From positions 1 through 58,110 of the forward strand of contig CALIBK010000096.1 in the NCBI GenBank assembly GCA_938045955.1: DNA of 58,110 nt, given 5' to 3'. This stretch comes from an uncultured bacterium. GTDB taxonomy: Bacteria; Desulfobacterota; BSN033; UBA1163. Under the pieces are notes generated by a model, which made no database searches, was not told the origin of the DNA, and worked only from the letters and a program-made list of their open reading frames with translations. The first letter of the stretch is position 1. Each line of letters starts with the position of its first letter. The position numbers and the translations under genes were made by a program. Shown in pieces: positions 1 to 12,653 of this stretch.

Positions 1-2066
1 TTTAACTTGTCAGCATCGTGCTTTGATTTTTCCAACTCTTCTGTAACCAATTGGGCGAACCTATGGATTGGAAATTGCGGTTTAACTAAAAGAATTCCAC
101 CCGATAATGTAATATTAGGATTTTGACAGGTATACTCTCTAAAGTCTTTATAAATTTCCAATGACAGCTCAATAATTTTATCCCAGGGGCCAATGATAAA
201 AAGATCATCTCCCCCAGAATAAACGATATAAAAAACACTACCTAAGTTTTCACAAATTTGATTTAACCATGCACCAAAAAAAATTTCTAAGTTACTACTT
301 AACGTTGCAATTCTTGATATAGAGGGATTATTAATCCCTAATGAAAATAATAGACCAAGATAATCTATATCCATTTTTAAAATGCCAAGGTATTTTGCAC
401 CTGTACTTCGATTGGCTATTCCTTCAAATTCAAGCACCTCCCCATCAATTCCTATGGGTACAGAATTTCCTAAAAATTTAAACCCAAATGACACTGGCTT
501 TTCATTTATATTTTCCTTTAAGAATTCAAGACCAAGATCTTGGCTAAATTTTGGATTAATTGAAAAAATACAAGAATTCAATTTCAATTTACCATTTAGA
601 ATTTTTTCCATTTCTTCTTCGTTTTGCAATAAAACTGTAACTCCAAAATCTTCAAAAGGTATTTCAGTTCCATGAAATTCTTCACATTTCCCATAAACGA
701 AAGAAATAAATTCCTTTTTTGGAAGATCGGAGCCAATTTTAAAATGAGTTTCGCAATGCTGGCATATTTGACCTTTAGATACTGGAACAATCAAACAAAC
801 ATTACATAGGTCGCTAACCTGTTCAGTTGAATGAAAGAAATCACCTTTTGTAATCATTTCGTTAAATTTTTTCATTTTAGATTCAGATAATTTATCTTCA
901 GCTTTTTTATAAATTTGATTAAACTCAAAGAAATCTTTGGGGGCTACTTCAACTACAACTAACTGGATACTAAGTTCCCCGTAAAATTCTTCTAATAGCC
1001 ATTCATCAAGAAATTGTTGAAGATTCTTCAATTTCTTTTTTGTAAAATCTGAATTTGGTATTAAAATATCGAATCTACCTCCACCACAAAAAAGTAAATT
1101 TGGTATAGGCAATTGCATCTCCCTTATAATCCAATCAGAAATCACATCTGTAAGAAGTGAGATGTAAAAAGATCTCCCCCTCAGTCTTTTTGAAGTCCCT
1201 TTTGTTTCGGCTTTTGGCTTAGTAATACTGTAAATAAATTTCTGAATGCCAGCTATGTCACCCCTTAAAAGTATGAATAAAGGTTTTTGAGCTGTCTGTG
1301 AAGATTCGAGAATAGACCTCCTTTTTTCTATATCCATTTCTTTATGGTGTTGCTTTAATGTTTCAATTAGATTAAGCATTTCGGTATTTGAAAAGTCATC
1401 TTCGCTTAATTTTTTTAGGCAAGCTGCTATAGCACAAGTTACTTTAGAATGGTCAAATAATGATATGTCTGGAATCGTCCTATTATATTGGTCTTCTTCC
1501 CAAGGGGTTGCTGAAGGTACAAAGGTGCCGAATTCCTTGAGTATGAAAAATAATGTCGTAAAATCATAAGGTTGATATTTTTTTAATAATCCAATCTTTT
1601 TGATAAATCCATTCCAAACTCTTTCATATCCTCTCTCTTCAACAAATGGTCTGTCTTTTGGAAATAAGACCTCTTTACTAATTTTTAAAGAGTCCAATCT
1701 ATAGAATTTTTCCTTCCCACAATCCTTCCTGAAATTTATTCTCGAAGTCACCGCTAAAAGAGCTGCTTCGTTTGATTTAAACTGCCCTCTTTCCTCTTTA
1801 ACTCTTTCCCCAGCCGCAAGTTTATCCGCTATGTGAATGATATATTCATTTCGAGTAGAAGGAATTTCATGATGTTTCTCTATAAGATTTGCAATATCTT
1901 TTGTTAAATCATCACCAAAATAATTTCTTAATGAGCTTATAAAATTTCCGGAGAAATCCGAGTGCTTAGTGTAATATTCCCCACCTTCTCTCTGTGAAAT
2001 CTTCCCAATATCATGAAGCAGTGCGGCTAAAATTACGGTTTGGAACTCTTTATCATCAAATCCCAT
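1..2066 (-). CDS. cas10: Cas10 (Csm1-like), type III CRISPR effector large subunit, cut by left edge
   Basis: About 688 codons are open from ATG at 2066 to the window edge with no stop, so the C-terminus lies outside. An HD-nuclease motif HDIGK begins at residue 18. Two CxxC pairs (C421/C424 and C435/C438) form the zinc-ribbon-like part. The palm cyclase motif is Y-S-G-G-D-D with GGDD at 618-621. All these motifs were checked to be in one frame, so the gene looks intact. In this family the HD domain cuts ssDNA and the GGDD palm makes cyclic oligoadenylates (cOA) on target RNA binding. The start has GGAGG upstream (ggaggggtaaaaATG). It is the last gene seen of the cas run; csm/cmr backbone subunits would be expected beyond the left edge, so subtype III-A versus III-D cannot be fixed from here. 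Confidence 0.93.
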   Translation of the reverse strand, partial: MGFDDKEFQTVILAALLHDIGKISQREGGEYYTKHSDFSGNFISSLRNYFGDDLTKDIANLIEKHHEIPSTRNEYIIHIADKLAAGERVKEERGQFKSNEAALLAVTSRINFRKDCGKEKFYRLDSLKISKEVLFPKDRPFVEERGYERVWNGFIKKIGLLKKYQPYDFTTLFFILKEFGTFVPSATPWEEDQYNRTIPDISLFDHSKVTCAIAACLKKLSEDDFSNTEMLNLIETLKQHHKEMDIEKRRSILESSQTAQKPLFILLRGDIAGIQKFIYSITKPKAETKGTSKRLRGRSFYISLLTDVISDWIIREMQLPIPNLLFCGGGRFDILIPNSDFTKKKLKNLQQFLDEWLLEEFYGELSIQLVVVEVAPKDFFEFNQIYKKAEDKLSESKMKKFNEMITKGDFFHSTEQVSDLCNVCLIVPVSKGQICQHCETHFKIGSDLPKKEFISFVYGKCEEFHGTEIPFEDFGVTVLLQNEEEMEKILNGKLKLNSCIFSINPKFSQDLGLEFLKENINEKPVSFGFKFLGNSVPIGIDGEVLEFEGIANRSTGAKYLGILKMDIDYLGLLFSLGINNPSISRIATLSSNLEIFFGAWLNQICENLGSVFYIVYSGGDDLFIIGPWDKIIELSLEIYKDFREYTCQNPNITLSGGILLVKPQFPIHRFAQLVTEELEKSKHDADKL

Positions 2067-2196: not shown

Positions 2197-3429
2197 TTAA
2201 GGCTCGGGTTCTTCAGAATCTATCAATGTTTTAAATTCCAAACTTTTTATCTCCGGAAGCGAAGCGCCAATAATACCCTGCATATCTCCATACATTCGTG
2301 TAATATTTTTAATCACTCTCTCAATCTGTTTCTCACGCTTTGCCCAGATTCTATTCATCACCGCCTTTTCACTTTCAAGATCGTTCTTCATGGATAAAAA
2401 AGCTGTAACAATTGCCTCAACTTTTTGCTTGAATTCAGGGCCATTTAAGTAACTATATAATGCCTCCATCTTTTCGTGCTTCCCCATCGCTGCCCTTTTC
2501 TCGTTTGCCAGTTGAATAAGATTCATCCTTAACGCTGTTGCCAGGCATGGTGCAAGGCTATATTCTGTTACCCAGACCCCATCAATCAGCTTGAAACTAT
2601 TCACTTCTTTTGGCATAGCTGTTGTCGCAATCACTGCGATTTCAGCCCTGGTTTCCCTCTGATCCTCTTTTAATTTATCAATCCACCCTTCATTCCAGTT
2701 TTTTGTTCTTTTTGCCTCCCAGATAATTGTCCCACAATATTGACCTAATTGATTATGAACCCTCTGAATAATATCAGCCCCTTTCTTCCCTTTCGAAACA
2801 GGCTCAATCTGATCCATTGGGAAATTGTCTTTAAGAAGATCTTCAAGTTCTATCTCTAAAACCTCGCCCTTTAAATGAATTGGACCCTGCTCAGCTTTTC
2901 TCTTCAGTTCTTCAATATCTCTTAAAAGATCATTAATTTTTTTATCTTTTTCGAGGTCTTTTAGTCTATATTCCTCAGCGATTCTACTTTGTGCCTCTTG
3001 CCTGATCTTTTCCCGTTCTTCGTCCAATCGACGGGTTATTTCGAGTTCAAATAATTTCTGCCTCTCCTCGAGATCCCTCCTCTCTTTCCGAAGATGAAGC
3101 TCCGTCTTGCGCATCTCTTCTAATTGTTCATTTTTATGTTTTAACTCTTCTTCAAGATCTTTCATCCTTAGGTTAAAGGAGTCTTCCAATTGCTTTCTCA
3201 TTTCAGCTTCAATCCTTGCCTTCTCCATTGCCAGTTTTTCAACAATTTCTTGTGAGATTGCTTTTTCTTTCTTTAAAAGGAACTCTTCCTTTTTTGCTAA
3301 CTCCTCTTGCCTCTTGGTTAGTTCCTTTTCAAACTCCTTCTGAATCTCCTCACGAATAGAATGGGTGATCGCTTCGGAAAGAGGAATTTCTCTACGGCAG
3401 TATGGACAAACAATGATTTGTTCTGGCAT
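2197..3429 (-). CDS. DUF2130 family protein: zinc finger, long coiled coil, PD-(D/E)XK-like domain
   Basis: 410 aa. The N-terminus has a CPYC knuckle (C8, C11). Residues about 25-180 are almost unbroken E/K/R-rich heptads, a long coiled coil. The C-terminal part resembles a restriction-endonuclease fold: a helix with E189/E192, GAD at 217-219, then WEAK with E238 and K240, matching the D...ExK order of PD-(D/E)XK nucleases. The family is PF09903/DUF2130, whose function is not established to my knowledge. The gene lies between cas10 and the four-helix-bundle gene on the same strand, with an AT-rich gap on each side, so it could be a CRISPR accessory protein or a passenger in a defence island. 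The nuclease call is inference from motif order. Confidence 0.8.
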   Translation of the reverse strand: MPEQIIVCPYCRREIPLSEAITHSIREEIQKEFEKELTKRQEELAKKEEFLLKKEKAISQEIVEKLAMEKARIEAEMRKQLEDSFNLRMKDLEEELKHKNEQLEEMRKTELHLRKERRDLEERQKLFELEITRRLDEEREKIRQEAQSRIAEEYRLKDLEKDKKINDLLRDIEELKRKAEQGPIHLKGEVLEIELEDLLKDNFPMDQIEPVSKGKKGADIIQRVHNQLGQYCGTIIWEAKRTKNWNEGWIDKLKEDQRETRAEIAVIATTAMPKEVNSFKLIDGVWVTEYSLAPCLATALRMNLIQLANEKRAAMGKHEKMEALYSYLNGPEFKQKVEAIVTAFLSMKNDLESEKAVMNRIWAKREKQIERVIKNITRMYGDMQGIIGASLPEIKSLEFKTLIDSEEPEP

Positions 3430-3498
3430 CTTCGATAATCCTTAATTTAAAAGAATTTAAAATTCAAAATTTAATATTCAAAATTCAAGATTTAAAAC

Positions 3499-4024
3499 AA
3501 ATTCAAGATTCAAAATCAAAAATACTTTACTCTTTCTTGTTGAATTTTGAATCTGGAATGTTGAATTGTTTCGTAAATTCATCGAATCTTTCCTTAAAAC
3601 TTTTATATTCCTTTTTAAACTTCTGGCCTTTAAGTCTTGAGCCTTTGAGATAATCAATCAAACCGCTTAACTGACCTGAGATGTCTTTACAAAGATAAAC
3701 TCCCTTATCAAATTCATCTTTAGTTATATAGTTTTGATCAAGGGCAACATAAAATTGTGATCTTGTCTCTCCTGCTGAACCCTTTGATATAAATAAGAAC
3801 TGAATGAATTCAGTATTTGAACCCCGTTCAAATCCTTCGGAAATGTTATACATAATCGAGGTTGAAGAACGTCTGATCTGGTCGATAAGTGTAAAGTCGC
3901 GGCAAAAATTTTCCTTTTTTGTTAAATCGTAAACATATTTAACAAGGTCTCTTGCCTTTTGCCAGACTGGAAGTTCTTCAAAGCTTTTTGGCATGAAATA
4001 CTCCTTCCTTAAATTCAAGATTCA
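3499..4024. repeat. 14-bp direct repeat flanking the four-helix-bundle gene
   Basis: The 14-mer aaattcaagattca occurs at 3499-3512 and again at 4011-4024, bracketing the gene at 3527-3994. Degenerate copies of the same AT-rich word (aaattcaagattta at 3481, aaatttaagatttta near 5380) lie at other junctions of this locus. The pattern could be a cassette boundary or simply low-complexity spacer DNA. Confidence 0.6.
3527..3994 (-). CDS. Four-helix-bundle protein (23S rRNA intervening-sequence protein family)
   Basis: 155 aa from ATG 3994, chosen over the in-frame ATG at 4018 because AAGGAAGGAG lies 6 nt before it and the family normally starts close to F-E-x-L-x-V-W-Q-K-A. The sequence has the typical order: F-E-E-L-P-V-W-Q-K-A-R-D-L near residues 4-16, D-Q-I-R-R-S-S, N-I-S-E-G-F-E-R-G, and a final helix with K-G-S-R-L-K. 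Members of this family are small pentamer-forming helical proteins, first found in insertions of 23S rRNA genes, with no settled function. Here it sits inside a cas operon between direct repeats, which suggests a mobile passenger, though a role in the locus cannot be excluded. Confidence 0.8.
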   Translation of the reverse strand: MPKSFEELPVWQKARDLVKYVYDLTKKENFCRDFTLIDQIRRSSTSIMYNISEGFERGSNTEFIQFLFISKGSAGETRSQFYVALDQNYITKDEFDKGVYLCKDISGQLSGLIDYLKGSRLKGQKFKKEYKSFKERFDEFTKQFNIPDSKFNKKE

Positions 4025-4028
4025 TAAT

Positions 4029-5189
4029 TTAAGATTCGATTGAAATCTTTTTCTTTTCGGTTCGAATCCCATAGCGTTTGCTTCCATGTTTACCAACAGG
4101 TGTAATAGTATAATAAGGATAAAGGGTTTCGTCTTCGATAAATTCTTTCAATGTATTATTGATTTTACTTATATTCTGCCTCAGCGTATCCTGATCGATA
4201 CCCCCTTTTTCGCCCCAGTGTTTTATAAACTCCTCCACCCGACCAGAAAAGGGACCATAGATTTTTTTATAGTCTTTCAACATTTCTTCCAGAGCCTTTC
4301 TTTTTGAAATCTCTCCTAAGGTTAGAAAACAATCTGTGCAATCGAAACAATAGATTCGATCAGGGAAAGAACATCCGTTTATCTTCTGCCTCAATAAATA
4401 GGTGTAGATAACCAGTTGAATTGGAACCATGTCTATGGATACCTCGCCCACCCGAACAATCCTTTCTCTTAAATCGACTCGGAGGAGGGGTTGAATTAAA
4501 GCCATATCAATCTCTTTTTGTCCCTCTGCCACAAGTTCTCGAAAGCTCTTTCCATTAAGGGGAACTTTTTCCCTTAGACGAATAAATGGGAGTTCTGCCA
4601 ATGAGATATGAACATCTCGAGTATGGATTTTTTTAATTAACTTTCCATTATGATTTCTTATCTCGATAAATCTATCCCTTTTGGGTTTATAGTAAAATTC
4701 GGGATGGGATTCCAATTCAGGAGGAACAAGGACATGATACAGTTTATCCCAGGGACGTCCAAAAAGCTGGAGTGCCGAACCCAGATAAAAGGACATAGTT
4801 TTACGGCCTCCTGCTAAAGAGCAATGGAGACGAGCCTTTGGATCAGAGGTCTTTTCTTTTATAAAATTTGCAATAAGATCACCTACTCTCTCATTATGAT
4901 CAGTTTTACGAATATCTTCGAGCCATTGCCCATTTTCTCCTTCGATTACATGAATTGACTTATTAGATAAAACGAATTCCGGGAGTCCAAATTCTTTAGA
5001 GAAAGCTGATAATCTTTCCTTTTTGATCAATTCTTCTTCAATCTTTTCCTTTCCTATGGAAGTTGTAATTATATGAATTTCTTCAGGAATAACAGGAGGT
5101 TTGAATTCTTGAGTAAGTGCATAGAGAGTTTCGGTAATAATTTGAGGCGTGGTCCCGATTACAAAAACCAGGATCTCTCTATATTTCAT
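4029..5189 (-). CDS. CRISPR-associated CARF protein, Csm6-like/ring nuclease (Cas_NE0113 family)
   Basis: 386 aa from ATG 5189 (SD GGAGGGG just upstream; a GTG four codons earlier is less likely). Residues 1-150 form a CARF-type Rossmann domain: I-G-T-T-P-Q near 11-16 and the signature S-L-A-G-G-R-K-T-M, with GGRKTM at 127-132. Such domains bind cyclic oligoadenylate made by Cas10, and this family is described as ring-nuclease-like. The C-terminal half has no R-x4-6-H HEPN motif that I can see; it resembles a winged helix ending in Y-Y-T-I-T-P-V-G-K-H-G-S-K-R-Y-G. I therefore read it as a CARF-wHTH cOA sensor or ring nuclease rather than an RNase effector. It lies directly downstream of cas6 and upstream of the four-helix-bundle gene. 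Confidence 0.82.
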   Translation of the reverse strand: MKYREILVFVIGTTPQIITETLYALTQEFKPPVIPEEIHIITTSIGKEKIEEELIKKERLSAFSKEFGLPEFVLSNKSIHVIEGENGQWLEDIRKTDHNERVGDLIANFIKEKTSDPKARLHCSLAGGRKTMSFYLGSALQLFGRPWDKLYHVLVPPELESHPEFYYKPKRDRFIEIRNHNGKLIKKIHTRDVHISLAELPFIRLREKVPLNGKSFRELVAEGQKEIDMALIQPLLRVDLRERIVRVGEVSIDMVPIQLVIYTYLLRQKINGCSFPDRIYCFDCTDCFLTLGEISKRKALEEMLKDYKKIYGPFSGRVEEFIKHWGEKGGIDQDTLRQNISKINNTLKEFIEDETLYPYYTITPVGKHGSKRYGIRTEKKKISIES

Positions 5190-5368
5190 TTTCCCCTCCA
5201 CAATCTATACGATAAATTATCCTCTGCTCCCTAATCGTTTTTTTCTTATTAATAAAAAATAGAAGGGCGAGATACAAAATAGAAAATATTTTAAAAACAT
5301 TTCGATTGATATATTCCTTATCGTTCGGTCATTTACTCCGCATTAACCTTCAATAAAAAATCCAAAAA

Positions 5369-6319
5369 TTAAGATTCCAAATTTAAGATTTTATATTTAC
5401 CAAGACCGAAACTCGTCCCTTTGCCAACATGAAGATATTCTCCAAGAAGGAGATAAGGGATAAAAGGCTTAAAATCACCTTCAAAGATTATTTCTCCAAT
5501 AAGACCTCCCATCTTCATCCTTGAAGATTGACGATTAGAATAACGCTCCCAGTCAAACCATTTGAGATCTGATTTTATGACTTTTACCTTTTTAGACTCT
5601 TCAATCAGACCCTTATAATCAATGTCCAGTTCCTCTTCACAATGAAAATAGGAAAGAAGGGAAATCCGCCTCAATAGATTTCGGAAAAGGATGTGAAATT
5701 CAAGATGAGGAGTTAATCTCTCACCATATTTCAATCGAACAGGAGTTAAAAATGTCAGATGTAGGGTCAATGGGGAAGAGGAGGGAATAAGATCACTTAT
5801 CTGGATCATTCTGAATTCGCTCTGTAGAATTTTATCCTGACCTGTATAAATGGTTTTCCCCTTTTCTTCGGGAAACGGGTGGGATACCCTAACCTCTTTC
5901 AGCAAATATCTTCCTTTCCCTTTCCCGATTCCTCTCCGGCCCAATTCATCAAAGGTGTAGATGAAGTAGGGCAGAAAATCGATACATTTCCCAATTAAAA
6001 TCAATTCAAAACAAAGAGGATCTCCGGGGTGATAATCCTTTTTCTCTTCCAGAGGAGGGGTGAGGACAAAGGGATGAGGGGCATAGGGATATTTCTTCAT
6101 CTTTGAAGAATCTGGAGGAAGAGGAGTCTCAAAAGTATAAGAATAGACACATTGATTCTTCAAAAGACAAGGTTGGCAATTCTTTTCCCTCTTGATGCAA
6201 ACAACTTTTTTAAAGGTATGGCCAAAGGCACCTCTGAGAGTTGACCCTTTATAGGAAGGAAGGTGAATCCGATCGATAGGATCGAGAAGAAAATAAAATT
6301 GAGCGAACCTGAAATGAAT
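5369..6319 (-). CDS. cas6: Cas6, CRISPR pre-crRNA endoribonuclease, probable ATT start
   Basis: 316 aa if translation starts at ATT 6319. The N-terminus then holds the family's opening ferredoxin-like segment: L-P-S-Y-K-G-S-T-L-R-G-A-F-G-H at 20-34 and four cysteines C41, C48, C51, C57. Further on are G-R-R-G-I-G-K-G-K-G-R-Y, the T-F-L-T-P-V-R-L-K segment with a following F..L-x-R-N-L-L-R-R-I helix, and the C-terminal G-K-G-T-S-F-G-L-G-K-Y loop of RAMP proteins. No ATG, GTG or TTG occurs between the upstream in-frame stop (6365-6367) and the TTG at 6163, and starting at that TTG would cut away residues 1-52. GGAGG lies 9 nt before ATT 6319. First gene of the visible cas run. Confidence 0.85.
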   Translation of the reverse strand: MHFRFAQFYFLLDPIDRIHLPSYKGSTLRGAFGHTFKKVVCIKREKNCQPCLLKNQCVYSYTFETPLPPDSSKMKKYPYAPHPFVLTPPLEEKKDYHPGDPLCFELILIGKCIDFLPYFIYTFDELGRRGIGKGKGRYLLKEVRVSHPFPEEKGKTIYTGQDKILQSEFRMIQISDLIPSSSPLTLHLTFLTPVRLKYGERLTPHLEFHILFRNLLRRISLLSYFHCEEELDIDYKGLIEESKKVKVIKSDLKWFDWERYSNRQSSRMKMGGLIGEIIFEGDFKPFIPYLLLGEYLHVGKGTSFGLGKYKILNLES

Positions 6320-6424
6320 GGGGATTTTCCTCCAAAAAAGTTTTGTTTTTGAAACTGAGGTCCGCTAATTTGTTTTCACCTTACCAAAAGATCTTAAAAA
6401 AATCAATCAATTTTTTAATCAAAA

Positions 6425-8617: not shown

Positions 8618-8662
8618 CTGTTCTCCTCCTGAAGAATAGTTTTCAAAATTATAACAAAAATT

Positions 8663-10021
8663 TTAATTTTTGACTTCAATTTTCTTTATTTTTTCCACAT
8701 AGTCATCCGCATCAAACTTCCTCTTTAAGCCGCGATCATTCATATATCTTACCGTTCCAAAGATCGCCCTTTCAGCCCAGGGACGATCATGCTTCCCAAA
8801 ACACCAGGCCACTCCGGCAAATCCATTCGGGTCCCTTCCATCAAGTTCATATTTGTTATTGAGATAAAGTGCAATTCGATAGGCTTCCTCAGGTTTTTTT
8901 ACCCATTCGAGAATCTTCTTCCCCCAATACATTCTCATATAACCATGCATCTTTCCTGTAAGAACCATCTCCCGCTGTGCTGCATTCCAGTAAGGATCAT
9001 GAGTTTCACCCCTTTCAAGCTTTTCAAGGGTATAAAGATAAGGTCGTTTGTCCTTTTGATGGACTTTAAGCGTCCTTTTTGCCCACATGGGCAGTCCCTC
9101 AAACAAATCGTACTGTTCATTGTAAAAAACAAAATTCATACTTAACTCTCTTCGAACAATCAATTCTTCCAGAAAAGCTTCTTTTCCAGGGCTATCGGTC
9201 TGTTTCACCTTTAAGGCGATATAGAGAGGAGAGATCTGTCCGAAATGAAGATAAGGACTCATGTGAGAAAGACCATCCCGGGTGGGATCGTTCCTTAATT
9301 CTCCGTAGTCATCCAATTTTTCATTCAAGAATATCTCGAAATATTTTAAGGCTTCTTTAATCCCCCCTCGGAAAGAGGTAACTTTTTTAACGCTTCGATC
9401 AATCTGAAGCTTCGAAAGGGCTTCTTCCACATCTTCAATCTCAAATGAACTGAATTCCATGGAAAGAGAGGAAAGCTTTGGTTCCTGCTCATCAAGGGGG
9501 ATAAGAAAAAAGGGGAGTTTCTTGTAGATTTTTGGCCTGAGAGTGGCTGCGGTATACTCTTCCTTAGATGAGGCTTCCTCCACCGGCACGATCACATCAC
9601 TCTCTACCTGAATCAGGGGGGCTTCAATCCTTTTAGCCACATAGTCTCTCCATTGCCTCTGGATTCTCAGGTACCCCCGATCCACAACGACCAGAGAAGC
9701 CTTTTTTGCCATCTGAAGCGCTCCAAGCTCAGGGGATTGATGGCGAATCACCATCTGAATCCCCCTGTCCCGAAGCCCTTTCCTCACCTCCTTGAGCCCT
9801 TCGAGCATAAAGGCATAATGTCGTAGATTGGCTTCCGGGAAATGATCAGTGATCCCGAAAAAAACAACCAGAGGCTTTCTCAGCTCATTGGCTTTGAGGA
9901 TAGAAAACTCCAGGGCATGATTATACATCGCCCTCTGAGAGGCCTGCATCCAGTAAAGGACATAGGATCCCTTTTTTATCCATTTCTGATTTAGAGGTTT
10001 TATCCTTTCTTTTTGAATCAT
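8663..10021 (-). CDS. phr: Class II CPD photolyase
   Basis: 452 aa, full length. The N-terminal photolyase-related domain includes V-L-Y-W-M-Q-A-S-Q-R-A near 22-32. The C-terminal FAD domain includes S-H-M-S-P-Y-L-H-F-G-Q-I-S, the R-R-E-L-S-M-N-F helix, H-D-P-Y-W-N-A-A-Q-R-E-M and G-K-M-H-G-Y-M-R-M-Y-W-G-K-K, which are class II signatures, and later N-N-K-Y-E-L-D-G-R-D-P-N-G. It would repair cyclobutane pyrimidine dimers with near-UV/blue light and FADH-. It begins 4 nt after the TspO gene stop, implying co-transcription. A photolyase is notable beside oxygen-sensitive metabolic genes. Confidence 0.93.
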   Translation of the reverse strand: MIQKERIKPLNQKWIKKGSYVLYWMQASQRAMYNHALEFSILKANELRKPLVVFFGITDHFPEANLRHYAFMLEGLKEVRKGLRDRGIQMVIRHQSPELGALQMAKKASLVVVDRGYLRIQRQWRDYVAKRIEAPLIQVESDVIVPVEEASSKEEYTAATLRPKIYKKLPFFLIPLDEQEPKLSSLSMEFSSFEIEDVEEALSKLQIDRSVKKVTSFRGGIKEALKYFEIFLNEKLDDYGELRNDPTRDGLSHMSPYLHFGQISPLYIALKVKQTDSPGKEAFLEELIVRRELSMNFVFYNEQYDLFEGLPMWAKRTLKVHQKDKRPYLYTLEKLERGETHDPYWNAAQREMVLTGKMHGYMRMYWGKKILEWVKKPEEAYRIALYLNNKYELDGRDPNGFAGVAWCFGKHDRPWAERAIFGTVRYMNDRGLKRKFDADDYVEKIKKIEVKN

Positions 10022-10025
10022 AGAT

Positions 10026-10523
10026 TTATCGATTCAGAATCCAGATGGAAAAGTTGAGAAGAACGGCTAAACTTACCCACACGAAGTAGGGCAATAGCAG
10101 GAAGGCTCCTGTTCTCGAAATCCTGGCAAATCTTTCCATGGTTAAAAGAATGGCCACCCAGAGAAATAGGATCTCGATCAGTCCCGAGAGAGGTGATCGG
10201 AGACCAAAAAAGAGGATGGACCAGAGGGCATTCAATATTAGTTGAATAAAAAAGAAGAAAAGGGCGCCCCTGACCTGGGGATTCCCTTTGTCTTTTTGCC
10301 ATATAAGAAATAGTGATATCCCCATGAGGAAATAGAGGGTGATCCAGGCTGGAGCAAAAAGCCAGTCGGGTGGAGTGAAATAGGGCTTTTTTAATGTCCA
10401 ATACCAGTTGGCAATGGCCGGTCTTGTAAAAATCGAACCCACGACTCCTGCCAGTTGGCAGAGGATGAGACTGATCGGCAATTTCCATAAATGGCTCCTC
10501 GTCGCTCCTTTCATATTCACCAT
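10026..10523 (-). CDS. tspO: TspO/MBR family membrane protein
   Basis: 165 aa with five hydrophobic segments. Signature residues are present: N-W-Y-x-x-L-x-K-P-x-F/Y-x-P-P (W-Y-W-T-L-K-K-P-Y-F-T-P-P), then W-x-x-L-Y-x-L-M-G, the N-A-L-W-S-x-L-F-F-G-L segment, and a final P-Y-x-x-W-V-S-x-A-x-x-L-N. The family binds tetrapyrroles and acts in stress or light/oxygen responses in bacteria. It lies between the photolyase (4 nt) and the Nudix gene (6 nt), so it is part of one transcript. An alternative ATG at 10514 is possible. Confidence 0.93.
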   Translation of the reverse strand: MVNMKGATRSHLWKLPISLILCQLAGVVGSIFTRPAIANWYWTLKKPYFTPPDWLFAPAWITLYFLMGISLFLIWQKDKGNPQVRGALFFFFIQLILNALWSILFFGLRSPLSGLIEILFLWVAILLTMERFARISRTGAFLLLPYFVWVSLAVLLNFSIWILNR

Positions 10524-10529
10524 TTCCTT

Positions 10530-11105
10530 TCAGGTTGAAATTAAATCCAAGAATTGCTTAAGAATTCGGGCCGTCGCTCCCCAAATAATATGATCGCCAT
10601 ACTGATAAGCGTAGACCCATTCGCTTCGACCCATTCGGAAGATCTCTCGTTCGCTGAAGGAGTCTTTTGCAAGTAAATAGGAGAGAGGAACCTCGATGAG
10701 TTCTGCAATCTCAATCTGGCTTACTTGAAAAGGATAGGGATAGGGGAAGAGGCCCACGATGGGGGTTACAATAAACTCTGTCACCGTAACAATGTCATCT
10801 AATAGTCCAATAATCTCAACATCGCTCTCCTTTAAGCCGATCTCTTCCCGGGCTTCTCGAAGAGCGGTATGGATAAGTTCCCGGTCCTCTTCGTCGACCA
10901 TTCCTCCGGGAAAAGAGATTTCTCCCTTATGGTATTTGACCTGATCGGATCTCTTGGTAAAGAGAAGATGACACTCTCCTTCTTTCCGATATAGAGGGAC
11001 AAGGACCGCGGCGTGAGAAAAAGGGGGATGATTGATGATCTTTCTCTCTCTGGAGGAAAGCTTTTTTCTGAGTCGATCAATAAATTCCTTTTCGCAATCC
11101 TTCAT
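10530..11105 (-). CDS. Nudix hydrolase, CoA pyrophosphatase type (NudL-like)
   Basis: 191 aa. The Nudix box runs from G-G-M-V-D-E-E-D at 67-74 to R-E-A-R-E-E-I-G at 83-90. Just before it is the CoA-pyrophosphatase element L-L-F-T-K-R-S-D-Q-V-x-x-H-K-G-E-I-S-F-P (47-66). It should hydrolyse CoA and acyl-CoAs to phosphopantetheines and 3',5'-ADP in the cytoplasm, which fits a CoA-ester-rich metabolism. It is part of the close-packed minus-strand run with tspO and phr. Confidence 0.88.
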   Translation of the reverse strand: MKDCEKEFIDRLRKKLSSRERKIINHPPFSHAAVLVPLYRKEGECHLLFTKRSDQVKYHKGEISFPGGMVDEEDRELIHTALREAREEIGLKESDVEIIGLLDDIVTVTEFIVTPIVGLFPYPYPFQVSQIEIAELIEVPLSYLLAKDSFSEREIFRMGRSEWVYAYQYGDHIIWGATARILKQFLDLIST

Positions 11106-11178
11106 CGGTAAATTTCCAGATCAATTTTAACCCATTTTTTGCTATCCTTTCATTCCAATCCTCTACTATTTCAATCTT

Positions 11179-11745
11179 TCATTCCCCTATCTCCCTTAAA
11201 AACTCCTTTAGAGTGAGGATCCTTAAGAGGGGGTAGAGAGCAAAATCTCGATAGAGATTAAGACAGGATTGATGAAGCTCTCTGCTTCGGCTTGCACAAC
11301 AATCCTCTACAAGGATGACTGAAAAATCATGACACAGGCCGTCCATGGCTGTCATTAACACACAGACCTCTGTGGTCATCCCGGTAACCACAATGGTATC
11401 AATTCCAAAGGTGCGGAGGGTCTGATCGAGATCCGTTTTAAAGAAGGCACTGAAACGTCTCTTGGGGAGGATAAAATCTGTGGCTTGAGGGTTTAGCTCA
11501 TCGATCACTTCCGCTCCTTTTGAGCCTCTTAGAGAATGAGGTTTCATCCTTCCACGGAAAATAAAATCATCCTTAAGAAAGCTATCACAGGCAAAGATGA
11601 TAGGAAATCCCTTTTCCCGGCCCTTCTCCAAAAGGCTTCGCAAGTTCGGGAGGATAGCTCTCCCTTCCTGATAAAAAGGGTTTTTTGGATTCTCTTTGAA
11701 GTTATCCTTCAACATATCTACCACAATGATGGCCGGCTTCATCAA
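11179..11745 (-). CDS. Isochorismatase-family cysteine hydrolase
   Basis: 188 aa. The family triad is visible: D10 in I-I-V-V-D-M, K95 in L-P-K-R-R-F-S-A-F, and C128 in G-M-T-T-E-V-C-V, followed by M-D-G. Members hydrolyse nicotinamide, N-carbamoyl compounds or similar amides; the substrate here is not evident. The start ATG 11745 is followed by a second ATG one codon later. One copy of a dispersed intergenic repeat lies 40-110 bp upstream, and the gene stands 73 bp before the Nudix gene. Confidence 0.88.
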   Translation of the reverse strand: MMKPAIIVVDMLKDNFKENPKNPFYQEGRAILPNLRSLLEKGREKGFPIIFACDSFLKDDFIFRGRMKPHSLRGSKGAEVIDELNPQATDFILPKRRFSAFFKTDLDQTLRTFGIDTIVVTGMTTEVCVLMTAMDGLCHDFSVILVEDCCASRSRELHQSCLNLYRDFALYPLLRILTLKEFLREIGE

Positions 11746-11786
11746 ACTTATCCTCTCTTCATTTTTTCATCATAGCGGATTGAATC

Positions 11787-11857
11787 TGAGAGCTTTAGGG
11801 GGAATTTAAGATAACCGCGCTAAGGTTTCCCGAACACCCCTATCAGGCCTATTCTCC
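11787..11857 (-). repeat. Dispersed intergenic repeat R, copy A
   Basis: Read on the minus strand it contains GAATAGGCCTGATAGGGG, then GGGAAACCTTAGCGCGGTTA, CTTAAATT and an AAGCTCTCAG tail. It aligns with 26525-26594 and 54272-54332. It sits between the tatD stop and the isochorismatase-like gene start, pointing toward the latter. Confidence 0.7.
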
Positions 11858-11873
11858 ACTCCTGATTAAAGGA

Positions 11874-12653
11874 TTAGCTTCCATCAGATTTTATCCTATA
11901 AACTGTTAAAGCATTTCGGGTAGTTGCTTCTGCGACCTTTTCAAATGGAATCTTTTTAATCTCTGCGATTTTTCGGGCTGTATATGGAATGAAGCTCGGT
12001 TCATTTCTCTTCCCTCGAAAAGGCTCAGGGCTCAGGAAAGGCGAATCGGTTTCGATGAGAAGGAAATCCAGGGGGATCTTTCTTACAACCTCTCGAAACC
12101 GTTCTGCATTTTTAAAGGTAATGCTCCCGGGAATGGAGATGTAAAAACCCATCTCGATACAATCCTTTGCCATCCCGTAATCCCCCGAGAAACAGTGGAT
12201 TATCCCTCCACAGACTTCCGCCTTTTCGGTTTTCAGGATTTCAACGGTCTCCTGATGCGCCTCCCGATCGTGGACAACGATTGGAAGGCCAAGTTCCTTG
12301 GCCAAACCGATCTGCTCTCGAAATCGCTTAAGCTGAACCTCTCTTGGAGAAAGATTTCTGAAGAAATCCAGCCCGATCTCTCCCACCGCTTTGACTTTCC
12401 CATTTCGGCAAAGACTTTTTAAAAGGGGATAGGTTTCGGAATCGATCTCCTTTGCATTGTGCGGGTGAACACCCAGGATGGCATAAAGAGAAGGATATCG
12501 ATGACAGATTTCAAGGGTTCTCTGCCAATCCTTTTTCTCTGTTCCCACTGTAAAAATATAATCAACCCCTGAATTTTTAGCCCTCCCAATAACCTCCTCG
12601 AGATCCATTCGAAACTCGGGCATTTCAAGATGGGCATGAGAATCCACAAGCAT
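11874..12653 (-). CDS. tatD: TatD family metal-dependent DNase/hydrolase
   Basis: 259 aa, standard length. Metal ligands are in D-S-H-A-H-L (H6, H8); further family motifs are V-G-E-I-G-L-D-F, P-I-V-V-H-D-R-E-A, G-G-I-I-H-C-F-S-G, and L-L-I-E-T-D-S-P-F-L with the catalytic aspartate. Family members are TIM-barrel 3'-5' nucleases/AP-endonuclease-like enzymes. Its ATG overlaps the TAA of the phospholipase D-like gene (TAATG at 12651-12655), so the two are translationally coupled. Confidence 0.92.
   Translation of the reverse strand: MLVDSHAHLEMPEFRMDLEEVIGRAKNSGVDYIFTVGTEKKDWQRTLEICHRYPSLYAILGVHPHNAKEIDSETYPLLKSLCRNGKVKAVGEIGLDFFRNLSPREVQLKRFREQIGLAKELGLPIVVHDREAHQETVEILKTEKAEVCGGIIHCFSGDYGMAKDCIEMGFYISIPGSITFKNAERFREVVRKIPLDFLLIETDSPFLSPEPFRGKRNEPSFIPYTARKIAEIKKIPFEKVAEATTRNALTVYRIKSDGS

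Follow-up and report, generated by a model that had tools for sequence, protein, structure and literature searches.

DUF2130 coiled-coil proteins with a predicted PD-(D/E)xK nuclease domain recur between CARF genes and cas10 in some type III-A CRISPR operons

A gene of the DUF2130 family, encoding a predicted PD-(D/E)xK nuclease carried on a long helix, lies between a CARF gene and cas10 in type III-A CRISPR operons of several genomes. The association of this well-preserved predicted nuclease family with the III-A operons of a few lineages is real, and from it we infer a mechanism. Type III loci encode varied effectors, and in nearly every case it was a CARF or SAVED sensor fused to the effector that led to its recognition; a recruited nuclease lacking such a sensor would escape surveys based on these fusions. 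The earlier note on this DNA had proposed that the protein is a nuclease accessory of a type III locus, an interpretation that is partly supported overall: the repeated III-A position beside a CARF gene, beyond chance, bears it out, whereas most of the family is not CRISPR-linked.

The window locus and its proteins

The window, that is, the whole stretch of 58,110 bases that was analysed, is an entire contig (G000:C96) from a genome that is incomplete, with 177 contigs totalling 2.69 Mb. Near its left end, cas6, an NE0113-type CARF gene, an S23 gene, the DUF2130 gene and cas10 follow one another in this order of transcription on the minus strand. The features are:

2197-3429, minus strand: DUF2130 coiled-coil, predicted PD-(D/E)xK protein, 410 aa, ATG start (open reading frame, PF09903 match, conservation, AlphaFold2 model)
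3397-3408, minus strand: Cys pair C8-x2-C11 (half zinc knuckle) of DUF2130 (invariant in 59 sequences)
2896-3381, minus strand: long helix, residues 17-178, predicted coiled coil (model secondary structure)
2500-2880, minus strand: predicted restriction-endonuclease-like domain, residues 184-310, with E192, D219, E238 and K240 (fold matches and invariant residues)
3-2066, minus strand: cas10 (csm1, III-A), 3' end lost at the contig end (TIGR02578, E 1.5e-168)
3527-4018, minus strand: four-helix 23S_rRNA_IVP (S23) gene, between CARF and DUF2130 (profile match)
4029-5201, minus strand: NE0113-type CARF, C-terminal winged helix, without a nuclease domain (TIGR02584, E 5.4e-64, and model)
5369-6163, minus strand: cas6 (profile match)
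3449-3525, minus strand: AT-rich TTGAAT-type repeats between S23 and DUF2130 (repeat inspection)

The DUF2130 gene thus occupies the place between cas10 and the CARF gene that had been claimed for it, but it is not directly beside the CARF gene in the window, where the S23 gene intervenes. The window Cas10 has both its HD motif (residue 18) and its GGDD motif (residue 618) intact, and further Cas10 matches are present on contigs C156 and C82 of the same genome, which also encodes six S23 members. The frame that matches the cas6 profile stays open to 6364 (5369-6364, minus strand) and extends beyond 6163, where the first common start codon lies; either the start is unusual or the N-terminus is damaged. 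The AT-rich TTGAAT-type repeats are found in several gene gaps of the window cas operon (2157-2187, 3449-3525, 4007-4037 and 5347-5391), and also in intergenic stretches of L174, L175, L007 and L188. An exact-repeat script detected no CRISPR array in the window or in any other locus with DUF2130 in this position, hereafter the slot.

The 410-residue reading frame belongs to DUF2130: its residues 157-398 match PF09903 with E 3.1e-68 and 230.3 bits, the curated threshold being 26.7 bits. When 59 diverse homologues that share 36-69% identity with the window protein are aligned, C8, C11, G188, E192, D219, E238 and K240 are among the invariant positions. This conservation agrees with the Cys pair and with three of the four catalytic residues named in the earlier note, D219, E238 and K240. 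The fourth, E189, is conserved in at least 90% of the homologues, yet it is not invariant, and the motif-I glutamate is more likely the invariant E192.

An AlphaFold2 model of the protein (pLDDT 83.8, pTM 0.39) predicts a Cys pair, a helix, a restriction-endonuclease-like (REase) domain and a helical tail. The coiled coil, previously put at about 150 residues, appears as a single helix of 162 residues (17-178), and the Cys-pair region as low-confidence strands (5-7 and 14-16). The elements after the long helix (helix 188-202, strands 207-210, 220-225 and 231-240, helix 248-260 and strand 264-269, before the tail) stand, from 188 to 269, in PD-(D/E)xK order. The predicted REase core, the order of the E, D and ExK motifs and matches to REases with Z of about 7 to 10 thus place the protein in the PD-(D/E)xK superfamily, and the modelling proposed in the earlier note gives a predicted nuclease fold with a complete active-site motif.

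Against the PDB, residues 184-310 of the model matched TBP-interacting protein (Z 10.5), VC1899 (10.4), which we take to be a CARF-REase protein, McrC (9.9), Cdn1 (9.7), Can1 (9.3), Can2 (9.2), Hjc (about 9) and Card1 (7.0). Matches with Z within 1 of each other count as tied; since McrC, Hjc and further REases score on a par with the type III nucleases, the comparison supports the superfamily fold and not a function or a closer kinship. These REase matches came from a second look with VIA, as Foldseek alone returned no match to the PDB at E 0.001; RmuC structures were absent from the VIA match list, which excludes nothing. Among solved structures, a single-sequence search gave no relative of DUF2130 and a profile search apparently only coiled-coil and zinc-finger chance matches, while matches in BFVD include restriction-endonuclease-like viral proteins. 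DUF2130 relatives are also encoded on 29 IMG/VR contigs (L211-L239). As the earlier note had stated, the protein has no visible sensor, with no match to a CARF or SAVED domain in Pfam, PADLOC or NCBIfam.

The neighbouring CARF protein was modelled from five sequences (pLDDT 77). Its residues 8-213 match the Crn1 ring nucleases Sis0455 (Z 12.6) and Sso2081 (12.3), and residues 236-389 match the OmpR/PhoB-type DNA-binding domains of CovR (9.8), CadC (9.4) and PhoB (8.3). No nuclease domain was found in it with profiles or in the model, and a sequence search of solved structures gave no relative. According to a 2014 review, NE0113 proteins are without an effector domain and are predicted transcription regulators (PMC4012209). 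The lack of a nuclease in the CARF protein and of an effector in NE0113 proteins makes a trans-acting nuclease next door attractive.

Distribution and history of the slot

Eight cas-type profiles and a DUF2130 profile, built from the L007 operon, were run over the loci. The same-strand order CARF-(S23)-DUF2130-(S23)-cas10 was found in the window, L008, L007/L012, L017, L022, L025/L115 and L116. L007 and L012 count as one genome, as do L025 and L115, which leaves seven distinct slot genomes in two DUF2130 clades; L008 is counted among them although its contig stops 180 nt after DUF2130 and cas10 itself is unseen. Gaps from CARF to the next gene are 1-167 nt; between DUF2130 and cas10 the distance is 54-130 nt in four loci and larger in two more, L017 (488 nt, with an S23 gene in between) and L116 (799 nt). 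Where the contig is long enough, csm2, csm3, csm4 and csm5 come next. An eighth genome (L076), of a third DUF2130 lineage, has DUF2130, a CARF2-HEPN Csx1 (E 3.4e-132) and cas10. The GGDD and HD motifs are kept by Cas10 in all six checkable slot copies, and the D and ExK motifs in the type III-linked DUF2130 copies. In L022 (Syntrophorhabdus PtaB.Bin027), DUF2130 (9962-11272) is interrupted by an in-frame TAA and csm3 also appears split, in an operon that is otherwise largely intact.

In a sample of the phylum, DUF2130 occurs in 30 of 395 genomes. Five of the 30 genes are in the slot, one of these cut before cas10, and for 23, of which three are on contigs shorter than 4 kb, none of the eight cas profiles matched in the part of the contig that was read. 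One (G368, L137) lies 1.3 kb upstream of cas6, followed by cas2/cas1-type genes named by eye. A divergent copy in G076 (L138, 7663-8607) is followed after 15 nt by a CRISPR array of 52 copies (8623-12166) and then by a Cas4-Cas1-like gene, named by eye. Within 5 kb of a strong cas10 match, four DUF2130 genes were observed among the 30 DUF2130 genomes sampled and about 0.06 expected, from Cas10 counts read by eye among the matches listed (Poisson P about 5e-7, or about 0.002 when they are counted as two families). A random distribution relative to cas genes, which the earlier note had named as grounds for abandoning its proposal, is thus not what is seen; with these four genes and the seven slot loci, DUF2130 has the repeated location beyond chance of a type III ancillary gene.

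Of the 46 genomes in the class to which the L022 genome belongs, 7 carry DUF2130 (four in the slot, one at the cas6-cas2-cas1 place and two unlinked to cas genes), although three of these seven repeat phylum-sample genomes, judging by coordinates; the corresponding figure for the class of the L076 genome is 8 of 240. Among the best 80 of 368 DUF2130 loci, five have cas genes and 75 are without the eight profiles, many of the contigs being short. The link between DUF2130 and type III CRISPR is real: it far exceeds chance in a few lineages, and most of the family lacks it.

A DUF2130 tree of 103 rows, built by a quick method with SH-aLRT as its sole support measure, puts the slot copies into two clades separated by unlinked relatives, and L076 apart from both; this arrangement requires at least four label changes. 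In the CARF tree (57 rows, 50 different), all seven slot CARFs belong to one 15-row subclade (support 99), which mixes them with CARFs without DUF2130. One gain with losses and two gains both fit.

Close relatives L174 and L175 have the same CARF with S23 and a slot without DUF2130. S23-like genes, recognised by eye, are in the slot in L174 (4461-4943), L175 (1522-2034) and L188 (3625-4083), and a different S23 member is the one between DUF2130 and cas10 in L017 (11315-11701). In the stretch from S23 to cas10, L175 has remnants resembling the starts of two further cas10 genes, and L174 has one remnant similar to the start of the window's cas10, as if cas10 had been replaced in these loci. A protein of about 680-720 aa takes the slot in further NE0113-cas10 operons (L176 5842-9277, L177 5403-8364, L181 4885-6939), with one of about 206 aa after it in L176 and L177.

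Proposed role and alternative explanations

Wherever the region downstream of a slot operon can be seen, in four loci, a standard CARF-HEPN or CARF-PDDEXK effector is encoded as well: CARF1-HEPN in L007, CARF4-PDDEXK and CARF2-HEPN in L017, CARF4-PDDEXK in L022 and CARF9-HEPN in L116, while the window, L008 and L025 end before this region. DUF2130 as the sole effector of slot operons was rejected for this reason. With standard effectors of cyclic oligoadenylate (cOA) present, DUF2130 is more safely called an accessory nuclease than a cOA effector; judged from gene content, it may be an additional nuclease.

The best explanation draws on gene order, fold prediction, the invariant active-site residues and the intact GGDD and HD motifs of the neighbouring Cas10. 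It holds that DUF2130 would be a PD-(D/E)xK DNase recruited as an accessory of some III-A operons and, having no cOA sensor, controlled in trans, a reading to which we give about an even chance. The parts that we infer are dimerisation, zinc, nuclease activity, substrate, co-transcription and the control step. The protein would be expressed together with cas6, CARF, cas10 and csm2-5; its nuclease domain would be carried on the long coiled coil, probably as a dimer whose two CxxC pairs would probably share a zinc, and it would cut DNA (RNA less likely) during the type III response. Control in trans would most likely come from the adjoining CARF-winged-helix protein, which would bind cOA made by Cas10 and thereupon activate the operon or interact with DUF2130 physically. 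Against this reading stand the standard effectors in the four slot loci and the Csx1 of L076, the slots of L174 and L175 without DUF2130, the internal stop in L022, and the 75 of the 80 best loci in which none of the eight cas profiles matched. The repeated III-A placement beside a sensor without a cutting domain suggests that DUF2130 is perhaps an unrecognised nuclease helper. A split cOA response, in which the CARF-winged-helix protein senses and the separate coiled-coil nuclease is switched on in trans, is improbable. A nuclease recruited with no sensor on its own chain would suggest that sensing and killing may be divided between two proteins in type III immunity. It would also give the little-studied DUF2130 family a first testable function and the effector-less CARF proteins of the NE0113 type a role.

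The genes around unlinked DUF2130 copies lend some weight to a general DNA-repair or end-processing nuclease that is not cOA-gated, is RmuC-like or works with AddAB/RecBCD, and is placed in CRISPR loci for trimming broken foreign DNA or supplying fragments for spacer capture. Among 126 flanking proteins, PDDEXK_1 (8) and SMC_N (7) are the most frequent Pfam families, and UvrD_C is found in 5; the PADLOC matches include six each to mad3 and mad8 and three to GajB-like helicases. These are raw counts, uncorrected for any background and taken in part from closely related loci, and they give a lead towards DNA repair or defence, not a test. AddAB/RecC-type neighbours were confirmed in L019, L032 and L083, and the G368 copy near cas6 and cas2-cas1-type genes would suit a part in spacer capture. 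The architecture is also co-linear with that of RmuC (366 columns in hhalign), but this profile-profile comparison is not significant (probability 3%), the RmuC profile (PF02646) gave no match to the window protein at E 0.1, and the window's genome encodes a separate RmuC. Near the slot operons read, cas1 and cas2 were not recognised by eye. We regard this explanation as rather unlikely.

That DUF2130 is a passenger, collected with other unrelated genes by a recombination-prone CARF-cas10 junction, would account for relatives in which the slot is filled by S23, an HTH-like ORF or other proteins, and for the AT-rich repeats and cas10 remnants in L174 and L175. Yet a second clade (L025, L116) keeps DUF2130 in the slot without those repeats, the third lineage has it beside Csx1 and cas10, and the active-site residues are intact, so that we regard a passenger as unlikely. 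DUF2130 could also be a standing antiviral nuclease in its own right, comparable to Shield ShdA, with no tie to the CRISPR operon beyond a common promoter: a nuclease with an RmuC domain is described as an anti-phage protein (PMC10270631), and some unlinked DUF2130 genes adjoin restriction or defence-like genes. This very unlikely alternative leaves the repeated placement beside one CARF subclade unexplained.

Comparison with known systems

No earlier description of a DUF2130-type III link was found in the literature searched, including the accessible parts of PMC11229360, PMC12669027, PMC12409355 and PMC10910872; it may be listed in the CRISPR-linked-gene surveys by Shah (2019) and Shmakov (2018) or in the CARF classification of 2020. 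DUF2130 does appear in a correlation table in PMC3597751.

Outside CRISPR loci, DUF2130 proteins are of the same family and have the same active site without cas genes nearby, and some of their neighbours are recombination or defence genes. RmuC and Shield ShdA (PF02646) resemble DUF2130 in a long helical part, an REase-like domain, a helical tail and co-linear motifs, without a significant sequence relation; ShdA differs in being membrane-bound (PMC10270631). NE0113 CARF proteins (CARF5 in PADLOC), with a winged helix and without an effector, are the operon neighbour and likely partner. The CARF-REase effectors Can1, Can2/Card1, Cdn1 and VC1899 are, like DUF2130, PD-(D/E)xK proteins of similar predicted fold in type III loci, but they unite sensor and nuclease in one chain, whereas DUF2130 has a CxxC pair and a long coiled coil instead.
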